From Tridacna crocea (Eukaryota; Mollusca; Bivalvia; Cardiida; Cardiidae): a DNA stretch of 64,000 bases. The notes beneath the pieces were generated by a model that made no database searches, was not told the origin of the DNA, and saw only the letters and a list, made by a program, of their open reading frames with translations. The translations under genes were made by a program, and so were the position numbers. The stretch spans positions 5,728,001 through 5,792,000 of the forward strand of contig OX031058.1 of the NCBI GenBank assembly GCA_943736015.1, read 5' to 3'. Below, in pieces: positions 36,715 to 44,905 of this stretch. The number at the start of each line of letters is the position of its first letter. Position 1 is the first letter of the stretch.

Positions 36715-36878
36715 TTATGGAAATTTTAGCCATTCTCTGTTAAAAGGCGGTTTAATGCACCTGCAAAAAGTGACCTGGGCCGAAACTTTTTGCAACTGGT
36801 CATTTTTCTGCATGTCAAAGGGTCAGTCTACTTCATGATCCCTCCACTTGTTCGACAAAATGTATTCTATGGATCCAT
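36715..36878 (+). mobile_element. Family E element, left part (continues at 43753)
   Basis: TTCTCTGTTAAAAGGCGG, ATGCACCTGCAAAAAGTGAC, CATGTCAAAGGGTCAG, TCATGATCC, ending ATGGATCCAT. The rest (ATAATTATATGATGACCTGC and onward) lies beyond the composite retroelement at 43757, so this is the insertion site. Confidence 0.7.
36875..36878. repeat. Target-site duplication CCAT (left)
   Basis: CCAT directly before the composite element. Repeated at 43753-43756. Confidence 0.85.
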
Positions 36879-37084
36879 TCTTACGAACAAAGTCCGTAAC
36901 AAAGAAACAAATGAATAAATGCATGGCAGAAATAAGGATCGGAGCGGGATTCGAACTCCGAACTCCCGGACGCAAAGCCAATACCCTAACCACTGAGCCA
37001 AAGAGATATCTCTCTGACGCAGTAGCCAGGTATTGTATTTAAATCGGGAGTATACCATGCAGGAAGGAGTGGTCTGTCGTAACA
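36879..37084 (-). repeat. Composite element, 3' TRIM-type LTR (206 bp)
   Basis: Minus strand TGTTACGACAGACC...TTCGTAAGA. A-box-like TGGCTCAGTGG at 37000-36990 and B-box-like AGTTCGAATCC at 36957-36947 give a tRNA-type Pol III promoter layout. It appears identical to the 5' copy and is about 95% like the TRIM LTRs at 44018 and 44342. Confidence 0.9.
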
Positions 37085-37185
37085 CACCCCCTCTTAAAGT
37101 CATCATTTTATTGATGACTCAAAGCCTTATTAGGCAGGAAGTCCGATTTTGGACAACAAATGGGATTAATGGCTCAATGGCCAAT
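37085..37185 (-). repeat. TRIM interior within the composite, with polypurine tract
   Basis: Matches the TRIM interior base for base apart from a few differences. The polypurine tract (TTAAGAGGGGGTG on the minus strand) abuts the LTR. It joins gag at TGGCCAAT (37178-37185). Confidence 0.88.
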
Positions 37186-37771
37186 CTAAGTTTTCTGCAA
37201 CTTTTTCAAAGTGTAGGAAGTATTTATCAACTTCTTTTTCTTGAAATGGAGGAACAAGCCTAATATGTTTTGTAACATCAAAATTGTATTCAATCTTTTG
37301 CTTCGGCTGATTTGCTCTTTCTTGCATTTCTATTTCCCTCATTCTTAATTGAAATTCTCTCTCCTTCTCTCTCTCTTCCCTTTCCCTTTCTCTTTCCTTC
37401 TCTCTCTCTTCCCTTTCTCTTTCTTCTCTCTCCCTTTCTCTTTCCCTTTCTCTTTCCTTCTCTCTCTCTTCCCATTCTCTTTCTTTCTCTCTTTCCTGAA
37501 TTTCTAATTGTCTGATCTGAAGTTTTAATTCAAGTTCTTTCGAACTTGAAACTGACTGAACGTCAACTATCAGGGAAAGAGCATTTTCATTAAAAATTTC
37601 CTCATCAACAAAATATTGTACCAAAATGTTCTTAATTTCATGTTTACGCATTGAAGATTTTATTTCAGACAATTTATAGTGCTTAGCAAGATTAAGCAAA
37701 TCAGTCTTTTTACCCAAATTCAATAACTCCACAGATGGTTCAGCCGTAAATTTATCTAAGTCAAAAGACAT
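37166..37771 (-). pseudogene. Second, truncated gag fused to TRIM interior
   Basis: The first 198 codons equal the full gag at 43423 except K79E and N196D. After NLDWP it runs into TRIM sequence and stops within a few codons. It has the N-terminal domain and the charged E/R coiled-coil only, with no capsid SCAN-like part or zinc knuckle. It is preceded by a complete 552-bp LTR and leader, so it could be transcribed. Confidence 0.85.
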
Positions 37772-37876
37772 GTTTGTTTGTTGCTGGATTCAAGTACAAA
37801 ATTATTATATCTATGTCCTATTTTCCAATCGATGGTTAATCCCAAAAGGAAAACGAATGCGTTAGTCTATTTTCCA

Positions 37877-37894
37877 ATCCCGGACGAGCCCCCA
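37877..37894 (-). other. Primer-binding site (tRNA-Pro), internal
   Basis: Minus strand TGGGGGCTCGTCCGGGAT, complementary to the last 18 nt of tRNA-Pro (established from the identical site in gammaretroviruses). Five bases separate it from the TAACA end of the adjacent LTR. Confidence 0.88.
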
Positions 37895-37899
37895 ATTTC

Positions 37900-38451
37900 T
37901 GTTACGAGTCAATCGTAACTAGAAAGAAGAAGCCAGCAACAAACGATAACAATTAACAGAATTTATTAACAAAAATATCAAATAAACAGTTACAATAGTA
38001 CAAAACAATACCTTAGACGTTAAATTCAGAAGACAAACTATTCCAGTCTTAATTCCAATCTGATCCTGATCCAAACTGAATGTTATCTAAGCACACAAAG
38101 TAATCCTCACTTTAGTCTAGTCTGATCCAAATCCAAACTGAATATAATCCAAGCACTAATTATGACACAAACACAAAATAATCCCCACTGTAGTCTGGCA
38201 ATCATGTATTAACTAGTGAACACTGAGATGTAAAAAGCTTTTCCTTTTATAATAACAGGGAAACTTCCAGAAAATTCATGTTAAAATCAGTTGCATAACT
38301 TCTAGTAAACAGATTGTAAAAAGGCCTGGAAACTTCCAGCACAATATTCTACAAGAGAGAATCCAGTTCTAAAAATAGCAACAGGGGAAAACCATTCAAA
38401 AATAGATACACACATGAACAAAGCTAATAATAACTGGGCATGTACATAACA
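37900..38451 (-). repeat. GMR1-like element's own LTR (about 552 bp)
   Basis: Minus strand TGTTATGTACATGCCC to CTCGTAACA. Preceded by a polypurine tract and followed by a primer-binding site, so it sits exactly where the native 3' LTR of the gag-pol unit should be. It contains a direct duplication of about 75-85 bp (TCTGATCCNNATCCAAACTG, TTTAGTCT) in the U3 part. Only one copy is present. The downstream edge is uncertain by about five bases. Confidence 0.8.
38241..38251 (-). promoter_or_regulatory. TATA box of the internal LTR
   Basis: Minus-strand TATAAAAGGAA, about 200 bp into the LTR and downstream of the duplicated segment, a sensible place for the U3/R promoter. Confidence 0.55.
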
Positions 38452-38463
38452 CTTCCCCCCTTG
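38452..38463 (-). other. Polypurine tract of the GMR1-like element
   Basis: Minus-strand CAAGGGGGGAAG directly before the TGTTATG LTR start. Primes plus-strand synthesis. Confidence 0.8.
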
Positions 38464-38676
38464 AAAAGAAAAAGAAAGGTTTATGAAATAAATCTTTCTT
38501 TTTTGCAATATTATTTATATACACGTATATGACACTTTAACAGAAGTATTACATAGGAAATGACAAACTCAAATATTAATTATTTCAGACTAATGAAAAT
38601 AATCAAGGTAATGAAATTACAATTTAAAAGAAAAAACAGTTTAAACTTGATTTAGGGAAAATTGACTATTGAAATT
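38464..38676 (-). other. 3' untranslated part of the GMR1-like element
   Basis: AT-rich 213 bp between the pol stop and the polypurine tract. No envelope gene. Confidence 0.7.
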
Positions 38677-41334
38677 TCAAACTCTTGAAAGAGCATCTGG
38701 TATAATGTTATCTTTCCCTTTTATGTGTCTTATGTCAAGATTAAACTCTTGAAGAAATAAACTCCACCTCAGTAATCTTTGATTCTTATTCTTAAGTTTG
38801 TGTAGAAAACTTAAAGGGTTATGATCACTGAATACAACAATTGGTGAAGTTGAAGAGGTTAAATAAACTTCAAACTGCTGGATTGCCAGAATTAAGGCAA
38901 GACACTCTTTTTCTATGGTAGAGTAATTTTTCTGATGTTTGTTAAATTTCTTAGAAAAGTAACAAACTGGGTGATCAATACCATTATTATCTTCTTGTAA
39001 AAGAACAGCGCCAATACCAACATCACTTGCATCAACAGCTAATTTGAAACATTTGTCAAAATCAGGTGCCAAGAGAACTGGTGCACTCTTTAGTATGGCT
39101 TTTAGACGATCAAATGCATCTTGACATTTGTCATTCCATTTGAACTTTGTGCTTTTCTTAAGTAAATTTGTTAAAGGTTCAGCAATACCTGAGAAATTTT
39201 TACAGAATTTCCTATAGTAGCCAGCCATACCAAGAAATCGCATCAGCTGTCTTTTACATTTAGGCACAGGAAACTCAGAGATAGCATTGACTTTAGCTTC
39301 TAAAGGTTTAACTTGACCCTGTCCCACAAGATGTCCTAGAAATGTTACAGTAGCATGACAAAATTCAGTTTTTGCAAGATTCACAGTCAGTTTCGCTTTA
39401 CTGAGTCTGTCGAGGAACTTCCTGATTCTTTGAAGGTGGTCACTCCAACTGTCTGAGTAGATGATGACGTCGTCAATATATGCATCACAACTATCTAATC
39501 CACATATAACGTTGTTTATAAGTCGCTGAAACGTTGCAGGAGAATTTTTCATCCCAAACGGCATAACTTTGTACTGGTACAGACCGTTTGGAGTAGCAAA
39601 GGCTGATACTTCTTTTGCTCTATCTGTCAGTGGAACTTGCCAGAATCCTTTTAGCAGGTCAAATTTGGTGACATATTTAGAATTTCCAACTTTGTCTATA
39701 CAGTCATCAATTCTTGGTATTGGAAAAGAGTCTGTTTTTGTCACAGAGTTCACCTTACGATAATCAGTACACATTCTATAAGTTCCATTTGATTTGGGTA
39801 CTAATATACATGGTGAACTGTAATTACTCTGGCTAGGTTCAATAAAGTCATTTTCCAGTAAGTATTTTACTTCATCCTGGAGGTATTTCTGTTTCAAAGG
39901 ATTCATTCTACATGGATGTTGCTTTATTGGTTTAGAATCTTCCACAATGACATCATGATAGATTTTATCTGTTCTTGTGGGGATATCAGGAAATAAATGT
40001 TCATATTCATGTATCAACTGTTTCAGCTCTTCCTGCTGCGATGGTTCCAAGTGAGATAGTTTGTTGTTAAGATTTCTCAAAATATCCGAATTCTCAAGTT
40101 TAGATGGACCAGGATCAGATTTATCAATAAAGTCCGAATTTACTTCAAGATCAGATACACTTGATTCTTGTGGGACAGTGCTTACAACTGTAATTGGTTT
40201 TGAAATAGAGCTATCTCTGTCAAAGTATTCCTTTAACATATTTACATGACACATTTGTTTGTTTTTACGCCTTCCTGGAGTATTAATTATATAGTTCAAA
40301 TCACTTGTTTTCTTGTCAATAGTGTAGGGTCCAAAATATCTTGCCTGTAGAGGTCTGCCAGGTATTGGCAAAAGAGCAAGGACTTTGTCACCTGGTTTAA
40401 AATTTCTATCTATAACATGGTTGTCATATCTTGCTTTCATTTTGCCCTGAGACGTTTTAAGATTAGACCTAGCAACCTCACATGCCCTAGACAGTCTATT
40501 TCTGAAGTCAGAAACATACTGTAGTAAATTCAAAGGTGTTTCATCATTTGAGAGAAATTTCTCCTTCAAAAGTTTTAAAGGTCCACGAACAGAATGGCCA
40601 AAAACTAATTCAAAAGGACTGAAACCAAGAGATTCCTGTACAGATTCTCTGGCTGCAAATAGTAACAAATGGATGCCCTCATCCCAATCTTTTTCAGTGT
40701 CAAAGTAATATGATCTTATCATATTTTTTAATGTCTGATGAAATCTTTCTAAAGCACCTTGACTTTCAGGGTGATAGGCGGATGACCTGTATTGCTTGAT
40801 TCCTAATTCATGCATAACCTGTTGGAATATACCAGACATAAAATTTGCCCCTTGATCAGACTGAACTGATTTTGGAAGACCAACAAATGTGAAAAATTTT
40901 ATAAGAGCTTTGACTATTGACTTTGTTTTTATGTTCCTTAAAGGAATAGCTTCAGGAAAACGTGTAGAAGTACACATAATTGTTAAGAGATACTCATTTC
41001 CTGACTTGGTTCGAGGTAAAGGACCAACACAATCTATAAGTATCCTACTGAAAGGTTCATCAAAAGCAGGAATAGGTTGTAATTGAGCTTTGGGAATGGT
41101 TTGGTTCGGTTTACCTACCATTTGACATGTATGGCAAGTTTTACAATATTTAGAGACATCTGATTTGAGACCAGGCCAATAAAAATGATTAATAATTTTG
41201 TGATAGGTCTTGTTTATACCTAGATGACCTGACATAGGACTTTCATGGGCTATACTTAGTATTTCATGACGATATGACTTTGGAACCACAATTTGGTTGG
41301 TAAACAGCCCATTCATCATCAGCTGGGACATCAA
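38677..41334 (-). CDS. pol: GMR1-like Gypsy pol: integrase, reverse transcriptase, RNase H
   Basis: 885 residues as an open frame. The order is inverted relative to ordinary Ty3/Gypsy elements. A zinc-binding integrase N-terminus comes first (H30, H37, then a CxxCxxC cluster at 64-70). The catalytic core follows, with D101, D160 and E196 (35 residues between the last two), then the GPY/F module (RYFGPYTI at about 332). Reverse transcriptase spans about 440-660, with FDLLKGF at 558 and YIDD at 619-622. RNase H follows, with D768, the E808-E810 region, D837 and DALSR at the C-terminus. It copies element RNA to DNA and integrates it. The upstream 70 bp overlap gag-protease in the +1 frame, and the true N-terminal part of the integrase is still in the gag frame (see finding). 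The listed methionine start is therefore only the first in-frame Met. Confidence 0.92.
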   Translation of the reverse strand: MMSQLMMNGLFTNQIVVPKSYRHEILSIAHESPMSGHLGINKTYHKIINHFYWPGLKSDVSKYCKTCHTCQMVGKPNQTIPKAQLQPIPAFDEPFSRILIDCVGPLPRTKSGNEYLLTIMCTSTRFPEAIPLRNIKTKSIVKALIKFFTFVGLPKSVQSDQGANFMSGIFQQVMHELGIKQYRSSAYHPESQGALERFHQTLKNMIRSYYFDTEKDWDEGIHLLLFAARESVQESLGFSPFELVFGHSVRGPLKLLKEKFLSNDETPLNLLQYVSDFRNRLSRACEVARSNLKTSQGKMKARYDNHVIDRNFKPGDKVLALLPIPGRPLQARYFGPYTIDKKTSDLNYIINTPGRRKNKQMCHVNMLKEYFDRDSSISKPITVVSTVPQESSVSDLEVNSDFIDKSDPGPSKLENSDILRNLNNKLSHLEPSQQEELKQLIHEYEHLFPDIPTRTDKIYHDVIVEDSKPIKQHPCRMNPLKQKYLQDEVKYLLENDFIEPSQSNYSSPCILVPKSNGTYRMCTDYRKVNSVTKTDSFPIPRIDDCIDKVGNSKYVTKFDLLKGFWQVPLTDRAKEVSAFATPNGLYQYKVMPFGMKNSPATFQRLINNVICGLDSCDAYIDDVIIYSDSWSDHLQRIRKFLDRLSKAKLTVNLAKTEFCHATVTFLGHLVGQGQVKPLEAKVNAISEFPVPKCKRQLMRFLGMAGYYRKFCKNFSGIAEPLTNLLKKSTKFKWNDKCQDAFDRLKAILKSAPVLLAPDFDKCFKLAVDASDVGIGAVLLQEDNNGIDHPVCYFSKKFNKHQKNYSTIEKECLALILAIQQFEVYLTSSTSPIVVFSDHNPLSFLHKLKNKNQRLLRWSLFLQEFNLDIRHIKGKDNIIPDALSRV

Positions 41335-43423
41335 ATGGTCGCCATTTTCTCATAAGAATCCCATTCTTTATATAGTAACACATTGGGACCTGTGAAATTT
41401 CATCTTCAGGTAAAGCCCTAAAAATTAATTTTGAAATCTCAGGATCAGTTTGCTGTTCCTGGATAAGCTGTGACTTTGACAGCGTGTCGTGACCTTGGTC
41501 AATAGACCGTGGTGATGAATGACAAGACATTGACGTGTCTGTCTGAGTATCAGACAAACTGGGATCAAGAGACTTTTTAATCTCATTATTAAAATATTGA
41601 CCGATAAAAGTATCTGTCAAGTCAATGTCAGAGTTTGAGTTTTTCAAAATGGCCTTTTTAGCCATAGCTCGGGTAACTGCACAAGAAGGATACAAGTCAG
41701 GAATTTCCTGCTCGATAGGGTCATCTGTTTGACCTATATTTGGTGTGTCAGTTACAAGTGGATTAACCACAACCTTATCTCCAGCTAAGTCATTGCCTAG
41801 CAGTAAATGGACACCTTTAAATGGTAAGGAAGGTTTAATACCAATAACCACAAGCCCAGTAACCAAATCTGATGACAAATTAACGTAATGGAGAGGGATA
41901 TTAACAGTTCCACACTCTACACCCTGAATAAGGACACTAGTACCGGAAGAAGTCTTCTCAGAAAAAGGCAGTATATCTGCTAAAATAAGAGATTGAGAAG
42001 CTCCTGTGTCTCTTAAAATTTTAATAGGGGTAGGTGGGCAATTATCACCTGAAAGTGATACAAAACCATTCAACATAAATGGTTCAAAAATCTCCATAGT
42101 AGAATCAGACTTGGGTTTTGTGACTATGTCAATTGTATTGGATTTAATAGAAGACTGTGGCCTTGGTCTAAGAGTGGTGAGCCCTGTTGGTTTGGTTTCA
42201 TCACTTTCTAACTTCCTTTTTAATTTCAAACATTCAGAAACAAGGTGACCAGGTTTCTTACAATAGTTACAAGTGGGTCGAGATAAGGGATATTGACTTT
42301 TGGTTTCACTAGTAGAATTGGGTTTGGGTGTATTGGATTGACTGGGGATGCCAGATGAATTACCAGACATAGATTTATTTTGGGGATGTGAGGAAGTAGG
42401 TTTGGGTTTAGCAATAAAAGAAACTTTATGTGTAAGGTAGTAATTATCAGCCAGACGAGCTGCTTCTTCTAAAGTTTCAACTTGTTTTTCGTCTAAGAAT
42501 GTCTTAACATCAAATTGAATACAACGTTTAAATTCTTCAACTAACATAAGTTGTCTTAGTTTATCATAACTTTGGTCTATTTTCTTAGAACAGCACCATC
42601 TATCAAATAACTGTTCTTTGTTTCTAGCAAATTCAACATGAGTCTGGTTAGAATCTTTTTTACAATTTCTAAATTTTTGTCTATATGCTTCTGGGACCAG
42701 CTCATAACCTTTGAGAATAAGTTCTTTAACAGTCTCATAATGATGACATTGTTCAACACCTAGTTGTGTATAAATTTCACGAGCTTTGCCTATCAAAACA
42801 CTTTGCAGAAGCAAAGTCCAGTGCTCTTTTGGCCAATTTAAGTTTTCTGCAACTTTTTCAAAGTGTAGGAAGTATTTATCAACTTCTTTTTCTTGAAATG
42901 GAGGAACAAGCCTAATATGTTTTGTAACATCAAAATTGTATTCAATCTTTTGCTTCGGCTGATTTGCTCTTTCTTGCATTTCTATTTCCCTCATTCTTAA
43001 TTGAAATTCTCTCTCCTTCTCTCTCTCTTCCCTTTCCCTTTCTCTTTCCTTCTCTCTCTCTTCCCTTTCTCTTTCTTCTCTCTCCCTTTCTCTTTCCCTT
43101 TCTCTTTCCTTCTCTCTCTCTTCCCATTCTCTTTCTTTCTCTCTTTCCTGAATTTCTAATTGTCTGATCTGAAGTTTTAATTCAAGTTTTTTCGAACTTG
43201 AAACTGACTGAACGTCAACTATCAGGGAAAGAGCATTTTCATTAAAAATTTCCTCATCAACAAAATATTGTACCAAAATGTTCTTAATTTCATGTTTACG
43301 CATTGAAGATTTTATTTCAGACAATTTATAGTGCTTAGCAAGATTAAGCAAATCAGTCTTTTTACCCAAATTCAATAACTCCACAGATGGTTCAGCCGTA
43401 AATTTATCTAAGTCAAAAGACAT
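41264..43423 (-). CDS. gag: GMR1-like Gypsy gag-protease (and start of integrase)
   Basis: 719 residues. 1-75 form an N-terminal helical region. 92-140 form a very charged E/R/K stretch, probably a single long helix or coiled-coil, encoded by a polypurine microsatellite-like run. 175-335 are capsid with a SCAN-like segment (GYELVPEAYRQKFR at about 239). The SCAN domain of vertebrate transcription factors is thought to derive from GMR1-type gag (established knowledge). A CCHC zinc knuckle lies at C385, C388, H393 and C398. An aspartic protease has DTGA at 472-475 and LLLGNDLAG at about 540. Residues about 650-708 resemble the region before the integrase zinc finger, then the frame diverges and stops. 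ATG at 43423 follows a 105-nt leader after the primer-binding site. Confidence 0.92.
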   Translation of the reverse strand: MSFDLDKFTAEPSVELLNLGKKTDLLNLAKHYKLSEIKSSMRKHEIKNILVQYFVDEEIFNENALSLIVDVQSVSSSKKLELKLQIRQLEIQEREKEREWEEREKEREREREREREEREREEREKEREREREEREKEREFQLRMREIEMQERANQPKQKIEYNFDVTKHIRLVPPFQEKEVDKYFLHFEKVAENLNWPKEHWTLLLQSVLIGKAREIYTQLGVEQCHHYETVKELILKGYELVPEAYRQKFRNCKKDSNQTHVEFARNKEQLFDRWCCSKKIDQSYDKLRQLMLVEEFKRCIQFDVKTFLDEKQVETLEEAARLADNYYLTHKVSFIAKPKPTSSHPQNKSMSGNSSGIPSQSNTPKPNSTSETKSQYPLSRPTCNYCKKPGHLVSECLKLKRKLESDETKPTGLTTLRPRPQSSIKSNTIDIVTKPKSDSTMEIFEPFMLNGFVSLSGDNCPPTPIKILRDTGASQSLILADILPFSEKTSSGTSVLIQGVECGTVNIPLHYVNLSSDLVTGLVVIGIKPSLPFKGVHLLLGNDLAGDKVVVNPLVTDTPNIGQTDDPIEQEIPDLYPSCAVTRAMAKKAILKNSNSDIDLTDTFIGQYFNNEIKKSLDPSLSDTQTDTSMSCHSSPRSIDQGHDTLSKSQLIQEQQTDPEISKLIFRALPEDEISQVPMCYYIKNGILMRKWRPFDVPADDEWAVYQPNCGSKVISS

Positions 43424-43528
43424 GTTTGTTTGTTGCTGGATTCAAGTACAAAATTATTATATCTATGTCCTATTTTCCAATCGATGGTTAATCCCAAAAG
43501 GAAAACGAATGCGTTAGTCTATTTTCCA

Positions 43529-43546
43529 ATCCCGGACGAGCCCCCA
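43529..43546 (-). other. Primer-binding site (tRNA-Pro), 5' end of composite
   Basis: Same 18-nt tRNA-Pro site, here directly abutting the TRIM-type LTR (CGTAAGA end). The leader after it is that of the GMR1-like element, so the switch between the two families lies in this site or in the three identical bases after it. Confidence 0.9.
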
Positions 43547-43752
43547 TCTTACGAACAAAGTCCGTAACAAAGAAACAAATGAATAAATGCATGGCAGAAA
43601 TAAGGATCGGAGCGGGATTCGAACTCCGAACTCCCGGACGCAAAGCCAATACCCTAACCACTGAGCCAAAGAGATATCTCTCTGACGCAGTAGCCAGGTA
43701 TTGTATTTAAATCGGGAGTATACCATGCAGGAAGGAGTGGTCTGTCGTAACA
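43547..43752 (-). repeat. Composite element, 5' TRIM-type LTR (206 bp)
   Basis: Same sequence as 36879-37084 by eye. It carries the tRNA-like box A and box B on the minus strand. Confidence 0.9.
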
Positions 43753-43756
43753 CCAT
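43753..43756. repeat. Target-site duplication CCAT (right)
   Basis: Second copy of the 4-bp duplication flanking the composite. Confidence 0.85.
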
Positions 43757-43835
43757 AATTATATGATGACCTGCCTGGTATAATGCCTCATGGAGATGGA
43801 TTAAGCCCCCTTTCTCCAGAAGGCTGGTCATATTA
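43757..43835 (+). mobile_element. Family E element, right part (continues from 36878)
   Basis: ATAATTATATGATGACCTGC, ATGCCTCATGGAGATGG, TTAAGCCCCCTTTCTCC, GGCTGGTCAT. Joined to 36878 it gives a regular E element with the composite excised. Confidence 0.7.
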
Positions 43836-44017
43836 TATATATATCAGTCTTGTTCTGGCAAAAAGGGGCCTAACGCACCTCAATGATGCATCACATCAAT
43901 CAAACCATCACATAATTAAGTAGATCCACATTAGCCACTTTTTTCAACAACGGATTTAATCTTGAGGTAGTCTGGTCCATGGACATTCAGAAAATTGACC
44001 AATAGCGAAAAGTATCG

Positions 44018-44225
44018 TGTTACGGGAGACCACTCCTTCCTGCATGGCATATACTCCCGATTTACATACAATACCTGGCTACTGCGTCAGAGAGATATCT
44101 CTTTGGCTCAGTGGTTAGGGTATTGGCTTTGCGTCCGGGAGTTCGGAGTTCGAATCCCGCTCCGATCCTTATTTCTGCCATGCATTTATTCATTTGTTTC
44201 TTTGTTACGGACTTCGTTCGTAAGA
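44018..44225 (+). repeat. TRIM 5' LTR
   Basis: TGTTACGGGAGACC to TTCGTTCGTAAGA. Confidence 0.92.
44104..44157 (+). promoter_or_regulatory. tRNA-like Pol III promoter (A and B boxes) in TRIM 5' LTR
   Basis: TGGCTCAGTGG (44104-44114) fits box A. AGTTCGAATCC (44147-44157) matches the box B consensus GGTTCGANTCC at all but the first base. The 43-nt spacing is that of a tRNA. The acceptor stem is not complementary, so this is a SINE-like head and not a tRNA gene. A second set is at 44428-44481 in the 3' LTR. Confidence 0.7.
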
Positions 44226-44243
44226 TGGGGGCTCGTCCGGGAT
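44226..44243 (+). other. TRIM primer-binding site (tRNA-Pro)
   Basis: TGGGGGCTCGTCCGGGAT directly after the 5' LTR. The following TTGG is also shared with the GMR1-like leader. Confidence 0.92.
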
Positions 44244-44329
44244 TGGCCATTGAGCCATTAATCCCATTTGTTGTCCAAAATTGGACTTCCTGCCTAATAA
44301 GGCTTTGAGTCATCAATAAATGATGACTT

Positions 44330-44341
44330 TAAGAGGGGGTG
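44330..44341 (+). other. TRIM polypurine tract
   Basis: TAAGAGGGGGTG immediately before the 3' LTR. Confidence 0.85.
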
Positions 44342-44549
44342 TGTTACGGGAGACCACTCCTTCCTGCATGGCATATACTCCCGATTTACATACAATACCT
44401 GGCTACTGCGTCAGAGAGATATCTCTTTGGCTCAGTGGTTAGGGTATTGGCTTTGCGTCCGGGAGTTCGGAGTTCGAATCCCGCTCCGATCCTTATTTCT
44501 GCCATGCATTTATTCATTTGTTTCTTTGTTACGGACTTCGTTCGTAAGA
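44342..44549 (+). repeat. TRIM 3' LTR
   Basis: Same 208 bp as the 5' LTR, followed by the ATCG duplication. Confidence 0.92.
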
Positions 44550-44612: not shown

Positions 44613-44905
44613 TAATAACCCTGTATCACACAATGACGACTCTAAACGACCCTGAGGAAAAAGCTTTTTGAAAACATTGTGGGAAAGGAAAAATGCTGGT
44701 AACATTTAACGACCCGGAGGAAGAAGTTTTTTGAAAACATTGTGGGAAAAGGAGAAAATGCTGGTAACCAGCATTTTCTCCTTTTCCCACAAAGTTTTCT
44801 ACGCAATCAATGCAAAATTGCACCATCTGAGCCAATCTGAGATTGTCGTCTGCAAATGCTTTCAATTTGGATAGGTCTAAAATTTCGTCGTGTGGTAAAC
44901 AGTTT
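44613..44905 (-). mobile_element. MITE-A with a 67-bp tandem duplication ending at the hairpin centre
   Basis: AACGACCCTGAGGAAAAAGC...GCTGGTAAC occurs at 44637-44703 and again, slightly changed, at 44707-44773, where the hairpin is completed. Right end GTGTGGTAAACAG. Confidence 0.75.

Follow-up and report, generated by a model that had tools for sequence, protein, structure and literature searches.

Structure of the chimeric element

The window, a stretch of 64,000 nucleotides from the Tridacna crocea genome, contains a chimeric LTR retroelement on the minus strand at positions 36879-43752. These coordinates and the CCAT flanks had been given in an earlier note and are right to the base. The 5′ part of the element, read along the minus strand, comprises a TRIM LTR, a tRNA-Pro primer site and a GMR1-like 5′UTR, gag, integrase (IN), reverse transcriptase (RT) and RNase H (RH). 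The 3′ part consists of one complete 552-bp GMR1-like LTR, a second primer site, a second 5′UTR with the start of gag, an 8-bp microhomology junction, the TRIM 3′ end and a TRIM LTR. The features are listed in Table 1, and LTR alignment agrees with the earlier description of TRIM-type outer LTRs with an unrelated LTR inside.

Table 1. Features of the chimeric element and its surroundings (positions in the window)
Feature	Position	Strand	Basis
CCAT target site duplication, left copy	36875..36878	.	sequence; site uninterrupted in 5/5 aligned paralogues (4 CCAT, 1 ACAT)
3′ TRIM (Helenus-type) LTR of chimera	36879..37084	-	identical to 43547-43752
TRIM 3′ internal part and polypurine tract	37085..37186	-	97.8% over 92 bases vs plain TRIM
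Junction J1: shared TGGCCAAT (37178-37185) and one TRIM base (37186)	37178..37186	-	comparison of gag, TRIM and chimera
GMR1-like primer site, 5′UTR and gag start, second copy	37187..37894	-	37178-37894 vs 42830-43546, 715/717
tRNA-Pro primer binding site, second	37876..37894	-	19-nt complement of host tRNA-Pro with CCA
Complete GMR1-like LTR, single, 552 bp	37900..38451	-	at least 39 other matches, 97-99%; ends set by comparison with intact copies
GMR1-like pol frame, integrase, RT, RNase H, 885 aa open	38677..41334	-	ORF and Pfam
GMR1-like gag frame, 719 aa open; protease region presumed only	41264..43423	-	ORF; SCAN-like domain, zinc knuckle below cut-off
tRNA-Pro primer binding site, first, directly after 5′ TRIM LTR	43528..43546	-	sequence; tRNA complement
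5′ TRIM LTR of chimera	43547..43752	-	identical to 36879-37084
CCAT target site duplication, right copy	43753..43756	.	sequence and paralogues
Plain TRIM next to chimera, ATCG target duplication	44018..44549	+	LTRs differ from chimera's at 7 alignment columns; ATCG both sides (L002)

The outer TRIM LTRs show no differences over 207 aligned bases (206 of LTR and one flanking), and plain TRIM LTRs identical to them are found at C6:48274724 (207 nt, 100%). The neighbouring plain TRIM was rejected as the LTR donor on account of its seven differing columns. The 717-bp duplicated stretch has two differing sites. A normal GMR1-like copy at C2:58494580 (L065) matches both copies of gag, and the internal LTR shares only about 95% identity with the LTR of the copy best matching the gag end. 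The primer site is a perfect 19-nt complement of host tRNA-Pro(AGG) with CCA. The junction patterns gave no matches in reversed controls.

The claim that the element integrated as one piece is supported by the CCAT duplication, by the identity of the outer LTRs and by the paralogues of the target repeat, which run uninterrupted across the site in all five aligned cases (one CCAT in four, ACAT in one). A single insertion following template switching is well supported.

Identity of the two partners

The plain TRIM at 44018-44549 is 532 bp long and has two LTRs, a primer site and a polypurine tract with no genes, as expected for a TRIM. The window TRIM resembles Helenus (TRIMp3), a published group of TRIMs whose LTR carries a tRNA-like Pol III promoter (Kojima 2024, PMC10886601). 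As described there, Helenus is a short gene-less LTR element with box A/B-like LTR motifs, a primer site for a tRNA 3′ end and, in animals, a 4-bp target site duplication (TSD); use of tRNA-Pro is reported among bivalve Helenus. The short gene-less form, the type of primer site and the TSD length are the same here. In T. crocea, plain TRIM copies have an exact 4-bp duplication in seven of eight cases, with one base different in the eighth (L006).

In some respects the TRIM LTR resembles a Pol III promoter. It contains TGGCTCAGTGG (by eye) and GTTCGAATC, and Kojima's TRGCY/YGG is present by eye, while GGTTC has no exact counterpart. A search of the LTR with the strict box A pattern found no match, ARAGORN predicted no tRNA fold and Rfam returned no tRNA up to E 10. 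The TTTT motif is absent from the eight plain TRIM copies read, which are near-identical and so not independent, and none of 1000 shuffles of one plain copy was free of it. TTTT follows soon after the TRIM LTR in the eight gag-carrying chimeras checked; in the window chimera the distance from the 5′ end to a TTTT is about 248 nt, and the cargo as a whole has many such motifs.

The internal part of the chimera was searched against Pfam as five separate pieces. Matches were obtained for integrase (H2C2, rve), reverse transcriptase, RNase H and a SCAN-like gag; a zinc knuckle scored below its family cut-off, and none of the pieces matched a protease family. The integrase precedes the RT, a position described as a feature of the GMR1 clade of Ty3/Gypsy (PMC8220671). 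The likeness to this clade is one of domain order, from which the name GMR1-like is taken. In a protein search, the RT piece had 1350 relatives.

Chimeric loci elsewhere in the genome

The chimera is one of at least 18 TRIM/GMR1 fusions in one genome, formed in both directions, rather than a singular event, which is new; the types include the mirror image, a GMR1-like element with a TRIM unit inside. The loci were compared with the window's own TRIM and GMR1-like modules only, so a different LTR partner would appear as unassigned. Exact 4-bp duplications flank 12 of the 18 loci (11 and the window chimera). Among the other six, two fail in this respect (C7:2.15M and C11:44.22M), the C18 locus fits only if a terminal base was lost and three are not judgeable. 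Pattern matches on C8 with a GMR1 LTR and primer site leading into TRIM (L072, L073) are diverged and have no clear flanking modules, and were dropped from the 18.

At 26 places, a TRIM LTR and primer site are followed by something other than the usual TRIM letters. GMR1-like sequence follows at 15 of them; the rest are five TRIM variants, two inverted TRIM LTRs, three unassigned places (L076, L078, L084) and one left out (C11:47.37M). The C5:58.78M locus consists of a GMR1-like 5′ LTR, primer site, TRIM internal region and TRIM 3′ LTR with ATGG on both sides, and would be the expected product of plus-strand transfer between elements. At C15:16.60M the two outer TRIM LTRs share one variant string (compared by eye), and nine columns separate the inner LTR from the outer LTR at the 3′ end; at C13 the outer strings differ at one column (also by eye) and each inner LTR differs from the same-locus outer one at 7-8. 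In the mirror chimera on C17, the outer GMR1 LTRs are one mismatch and one gap apart, and the 5′ LTR differs from the other near-full-length LTRs compared by at least 16 mismatches. The 5′ LTR of the C9 locus is mosaic and over-long.

The exact window junction was found once; amplification of the chimera, sought by means of this junction, was not seen. Three other junctions differ by one base and belong to other gag/5′UTR lineages. TRIM-gag elements with nearly the same junction lie on C5, C7 and C9, and the C5 element has gag/5′UTR like that of the window near the junction. An independent origin of the three near-identical junctions is likely rather than proven: the same picture could come from an old junction with recombination upstream of it. 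Plant TR-GAG elements are short elements with LTRs and gag, and the chimeras at C5:1.24M, C7:37.20M, C9 and C14 are like them; in contrast to TR-GAG, gag here is a truncated piece matching the GMR1-like family.

Probable origin of the chimera and the candidate helper role of the GMR1-like element

The best explanation, and in our judgement a highly probable one, is co-packaging of TRIM and GMR1-like RNA, template switching in reverse transcription and one integration. Helenus-type TRIM RNA and GMR1-like genomic RNA would have been packaged in the same GMR1-like particle. Minus-strand synthesis would have run from the TRIM 3′ LTR into the TRIM internal region. At TGGCCAAT it would have passed over to gag, either by a direct switch or, if a TRIM-gag RNA already existed, by homologous switching from that RNA. 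Copying would then have proceeded back through the 5′UTR, primer site and U5-R, jumped to a 3′ R of GMR1-like RNA and continued through U3, pol, gag and 5′UTR as far as the primer site. There, TRIM plus-strand strong-stop DNA would have annealed via the common 19-nt tRNA-Pro site, and integrase would have inserted the product with a 4-bp duplication. The sequences show the anatomy, the single insertion, the TRIM-type outer LTR pair, the common primer site, the short junction match and sister chimeras in both directions; co-packaging, the order of the jumps and a helper role for the GMR1-like element are inferred.

Template switching, as proposed earlier, is supported by the common 19-nt primer site, the single internal LTR, the 8-bp junction match and 17 further chimeras of several kinds. 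The switch from TRIM into gag may have preceded the rest of the process, with the gag end gained beforehand, since the genome has shorter TRIM-gag elements whose junction is almost identical. The short match is weak evidence, because the TRIM internal region has no more words of at least 8 nt in common with GMR1 than shuffled sequence does (8 observed against a shuffle mean of 11.9), and an unusually strong homology at the junction was rejected on this ground; the longest shared word is 9 (shuffle mean 9.9). A mosaic internal GMR1 LTR, with R-U5 of one lineage and U3 of another, was sought, and no clear mosaic was found; the window LTR has three private positions. The jump to a second GMR1-like genome in the path proposed earlier is thus a possible step.

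Among the alternatives, DNA-level recombination survives best and is still improbable. A TRIM-gag element already at the CCAT site would have recombined in its 5′UTR/gag with a 1-LTR GMR1-like circular cDNA, adding the internal region and LTR. One crossover would yield the chimera topology with CCAT kept, and the elements on C5, C7 and C9 with nearly the same junction favour this route. However, these three known elements are of other gag/5′UTR lineages, with C5 like the window near the junction, and reverse transcription better fits the unlike LTRs and matching TSD at C5:58.78M and the like outer and unlike inner LTRs at C15:16.60M and C13. Recombination of the ordinary kind, between a TRIM and a GMR1-like element that had inserted separately, given as the usual explanation of complex LTR elements (Sabot and Schulman 2007, PMC1950507), is very unlikely here: it predicts unmatched flanks and unlike outer LTRs, whereas CCAT matches, target paralogues cross the site and the outer LTRs are identical. 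A false join of a TRIM to a GMR1-like copy during assembly is less probable again; both families are repeated with near-identical copies and the chimera is known from the assembly alone, but the TSD is exact, the target repeat closes up in paralogues, the 717-bp duplication has its own differences and 11 other chimeric loci have exact TSDs. Nesting, with a GMR1-like element inserted into a TRIM, would fit the position of GMR1-like sequence between two TRIM LTRs. It was rejected as the least credible of all, since the insert has no 5′ GMR1 LTR and begins exactly at the common primer site, and the inner boundaries have no target duplications.

In Triticeae, an internal LTR with a flanking TSD and like outer LTRs is taken to indicate that reverse transcription and integration each happened once (Sabot and Schulman 2007, PMC1950507). 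The window element has the internal LTR, the flanking TSD and like outer LTRs (0 differences); of the two complete cores also considered by those authors, only the GMR1-like one is present, and the TRIM core ends at the junction. The Triticeae complexes described there are of like elements, whereas the fusions here, found in both directions, link a TRIM to an autonomous element whose LTRs are unrelated to its own. For transposition bursts, Sanchez et al. 2017 (PMC5668417) describe similar recombination in reverse transcription between co-packaged RNAs, with the Onsen exchanges reported there taking place within one family, unlike here. LTR swapping in soybean (Du et al. 2010) is likewise reported to involve recombination between co-packaged RNAs.

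The chimeras point to a GMR1-like element as the helper of an animal Helenus. TRIM helpers are usually guessed from short sequence likeness. For animal Helenus, a Gypsy helper was inferred from primer-site similarity and TSD length (Kojima 2024, PMC10886601), and the main text of that paper does not mention GMR1, chimeric or template switch; here, by comparison, many loci have the parasite physically fused to its presumed helper, a GMR1-like element. Chimeras within one target duplication are physical evidence of two RNAs meeting in one particle, and hence can name helpers in other genomes.

In a formal sense the earlier statement holds, as the helper's genes do lie between the parasite's LTRs, but the arrangement is probably not functional given the Pol III-like LTR and TTTT-rich cargo. 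That the TRIM usefully carries these genes is doubtful in view of the early TTTT, some 248 nt in from the 5′ end, and of the exact junction having been found once. A wider reading, which we consider evenly poised, is that the genome records Pol III-transcribed TRIM RNA and Pol II-transcribed GMR1-like RNA in common particles. The 19-nt tRNA-Pro site would be the main exchange point in both directions, so that chimeras name the helper, and hybrids would mostly be dead ends because Pol III terminators come in with the captured helper sequence; this would go some way to explain why the parasites stay small. The absence of TTTT from the plain TRIM copies read and its early position in gag-carrying chimeras suggest why the parasite does not regain genes, in a form that can be tested. 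The chimeras also suggest that dissimilar LTRs are no bar to sharing when the primer site is common.

Structure and Integration of the Chimera

Reading the minus strand of the chimera bears out the earlier note, which described outer LTRs of a TRIM (a short, gene-less LTR element) around gag-pol with its own internal LTR, and CCAT around the whole; CCAT immediately flanks the element on the left and right. The outer LTRs align with 0 differences. The two copies of a duplicated 717 bp segment differ at two sites in the alignment, 37186 and 37537. At 37186, adjoining the gag-to-TRIM junction, the base in the 3′ copy is that of the TRIM; 43189, the upstream-copy counterpart of 37537, carries a base unseen in the other alignment rows covering the site. 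SCAN-like gag, integrase, reverse transcriptase (RT) and RNase H were detected in five separate protein pieces of the chimera, a zinc knuckle scored below the cut-off, and protease had no match among these pieces. Integrase precedes RT, the order described for GMR1 (PMC8220671).

Both flanks, fused with a single CCAT, were used as a genome query. There were at least 40 matches; of the 40 listed, two are the window's own halves, and in each of the 38 others (75–81% identity) the query range crosses the joint. Five of these 38 paralogues were fetched and aligned, and all are gap-free at the joint, which reads CCAT in four and ACAT in one. The target is therefore an ordinary dispersed repeat, entered by the whole 6,874 bp with a 4-bp duplication, and the proposed integration as one piece is well supported by the CCAT duplication and the uninterrupted site in the aligned paralogues. 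Exact 4-bp duplications flank seven of eight plain TRIMs, and 4-bp duplications were found at all three GMR1-like copies checked. Next to the insertion, 43754–43918 forms a long imperfect hairpin (plant microRNA families score below threshold), probably a palindromic repeat; 44733–44799 contains a near-perfect inverted repeat of 33 nt with a 1-nt gap.

Chimeric Loci in the Genome

The assembly (1.05 Gb, 31 contigs; the window is C3:5728001–5792000) was searched for four junction types: gag–TRIM (4 places), TRIM LTR–primer binding site (PBS)–GMR1 (13), GMR1-like LTR–PBS–TRIM (7) and TRIM LTR–PBS without the usual TRIM letters after it (26). Reversed controls gave 0 matches for each search. Reading the loci, some over part of their length, yielded at least 18 TRIM/GMR1 chimeras including that of the window, with two diverged C8 matches excluded; the count is a lower bound because the search covered these junction types only.

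Chimeric TRIM/GMR1-like loci (TL, TRIM LTR; GL, GMR1-like LTR; TI, TRIM internal region; contig positions in Mb)
Locus	Coordinates	Strand	Composition
Window chimera	36879–43752	minus	TL, PBS, GMR1-like 5′UTR, gag, pol, internal GL, PBS, repeated 5′UTR and gag start, junction, TI 3′ end, TL
C5:1.24M			TRIM with 5′UTR and gag start; junction nearly the same as the window's
C7:37.20M			TRIM with 5′UTR and gag start; junction nearly the same as the window's
C9:4.45M (L012/L018)			TRIM with 5′UTR and gag start; junction nearly the same as the window's
C14:36.12M			gag, different junction
C15:16.60M			gag through start of RT
C2:4.64M			gag to integrase; breakpoint common with C13:47.38M
C13:47.38M			gag to integrase; breakpoint common with C2:4.64M
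C1:45.60M			GMR1 U5 pieces within TRIM
C15:27.65M			GMR1 U5 pieces within TRIM
C17:7.41M			Mirror image: GL, PBS, TI, TL, PBS, GMR1 internal, GL
C5:58.78M			GL, PBS, TI, TL
C18:31.90M
C7:2.15M
C3:13.87M (L015/L064)
C2:32.62M (L023)
C11:44.22M
C5:32.08M (L079)	C5:32078180–32078900		TL and PBS, ~20 nt resembling antisense pol, part of GMR1 LTR, 5′UTR/gag

Target site duplications (TSDs) were judged at 15 of the 18 loci (all except C3:13.87M, C2:32.62M and C5:32.08M), and 12 of the 18, the window and 11 others, have exact 4-bp duplications. At C18:31.90M a matching TSD requires the loss of one base from the GMR1 end, and the flanking 4-bp sequences at C7:2.15M and C11:44.22M do not match. The locus C5:32.08M apparently underwent several switches within one element.

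The 26 TRIM LTR–PBS places, 25 of which were read, were compared with the window's own modules only: 15 continue into GMR1-like sequence, five are TRIM variants, two are inverted TRIM LTRs and three (L076, L078 and L084) match neither TRIM nor GMR1-like modules. These three may reflect truncation or the capture of other sequence, a different LTR partner also being conceivable. Inverted TRIM LTR pieces adjoin one another or the PBS at C3:13.87M, C2:32.62M, L075 and L077, as if the growing strand had folded back during synthesis; L075 adjoins GMR1-like pol sequence as well. Overlapping or adjoining TRIM matches spaced about one unit (C15:35763320–35764499 and C5:37665661–37666832) look like tandem TRIM arrays with common LTRs.

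Parent Elements and Proposed Template Switching

A plain TRIM LTR at C6:48274724 is identical to that of the chimera (207 nt at 100%). Over 847 bp, the normal GMR1-like copy at C2:58494580 is identical to the gag end (100% after rounding), but its LTR is only ~95% identical to the internal LTR. Both families were mobile recently, since the paired LTRs of GMR1-like copies at three loci differ by 0–2 bases and every listed full-length match to the TRIM is 98–100% identical to the query. The PBS region comprises the same 21 nt in both elements, 19 of which are complementary to the 3′ end, with CCA, of host tRNA-Pro(AGG).

Under reverse transcription, the two outer LTRs of an element are expected to be synthesised together and its inner LTRs to come from another RNA. 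At C15:16.60M one variant string is common to the two outer TRIM LTRs (compared by eye in the table of variants), and the inner TRIM LTR differs from the last one at nine columns. The outer strings of the C13 locus differ at one column, also by eye, and between each inner LTR and the outer LTR of its own locus there are 7–8 differences. The outer GMR1 LTRs of the C17 locus differ by one mismatch and one gap, the 5′ one having at least 16 mismatches to the other near-full-length LTRs compared. At C5:58.78M the outer LTRs are unlike, with ATGG on either side, which is consistent with plus-strand transfer between co-packaged elements. The over-long 5′ TRIM LTR of C9:4.45M, a mosaic of two LTR lineages, does not fit the scheme simply. 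Sabot and Schulman (2007, PMC1950507) require flanking TSDs, like outer LTRs and two complete core sequences; the chimera agrees with the first two and departs from the last, because its TRIM core is truncated.

In the favoured reading, TRIM and GMR1-like RNAs would be co-packaged in GMR1-like particles, and synthesis would switch template at short matches (TGGCCAAT at the window junction), read through the PBS into U5-R, jump to the 3′ R and close at the common PBS. The TGGCCAAT match and the shared PBS agree with this switching path, put forward in the earlier note. A two-step route, with homologous recombination of a TRIM-gag RNA, fits the window, taken by itself, equally well. Short matches at other junctions measure 5–9 nt by eye. 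Taken alone, all of these matches, that of the window included, are weak evidence, because words shared by TRIM and GMR1 are neither longer nor commoner than in shuffles.

Template-switch complexes and tandem TRIMs are already known. Recombination within families (Sanchez 2017, PMC5668417) and bivalve TRIMs without an identified partner (PMC6934838) have been described, and a template-switching origin has been suggested for Cassandra arrays (PMC7215508). Among the open-licence papers covered by the search, none was seen to describe comparable fusions of a TRIM with its helper; the main gain is the assignment of a GMR1-like element as probable helper of the TRIM.

Putative Pol III Promoter and Fate of the Captured Genes

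Motifs resembling box A (TGGCTCAGTGG) and box B (GTTCGAATC) lie in the TRIM LTR. In these, as in its 4-bp duplications and tRNA-Pro PBS, the TRIM resembles Helenus, a group of TRIMs described as having Pol III promoters that derive from tRNA (Kojima 2024, PMC10886601). Membership is likely but not proved, because neither ARAGORN nor Rfam detected a tRNA in the LTR and a strict box A pattern had no match there. TTTT is absent from 8/8 plain TRIM copies, which are near-identical and thus constitute one observation; 0/1000 shuffles of one copy lacked it (mean of 8.7 TTTT). Counting from 43753, the window chimera reaches its first TTTT at the 249th base; in the seven other gag-carrying chimeras checked the distance is 247–252 nt, measured from where the TRIM LTR beside the gag piece starts. 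If Pol III reads this LTR, the captured gag-pol could not be transcribed from it. The internal GMR1 LTR sits downstream of gag-pol, and the exact window junction was found once in the genome. Thus, genes of the probable helper do lie between the parasite's own LTRs, as had been claimed, but the early TTTT (should Pol III read the LTR), the downstream internal LTR and the single junction suggest a dead end rather than a new autonomous parasite.
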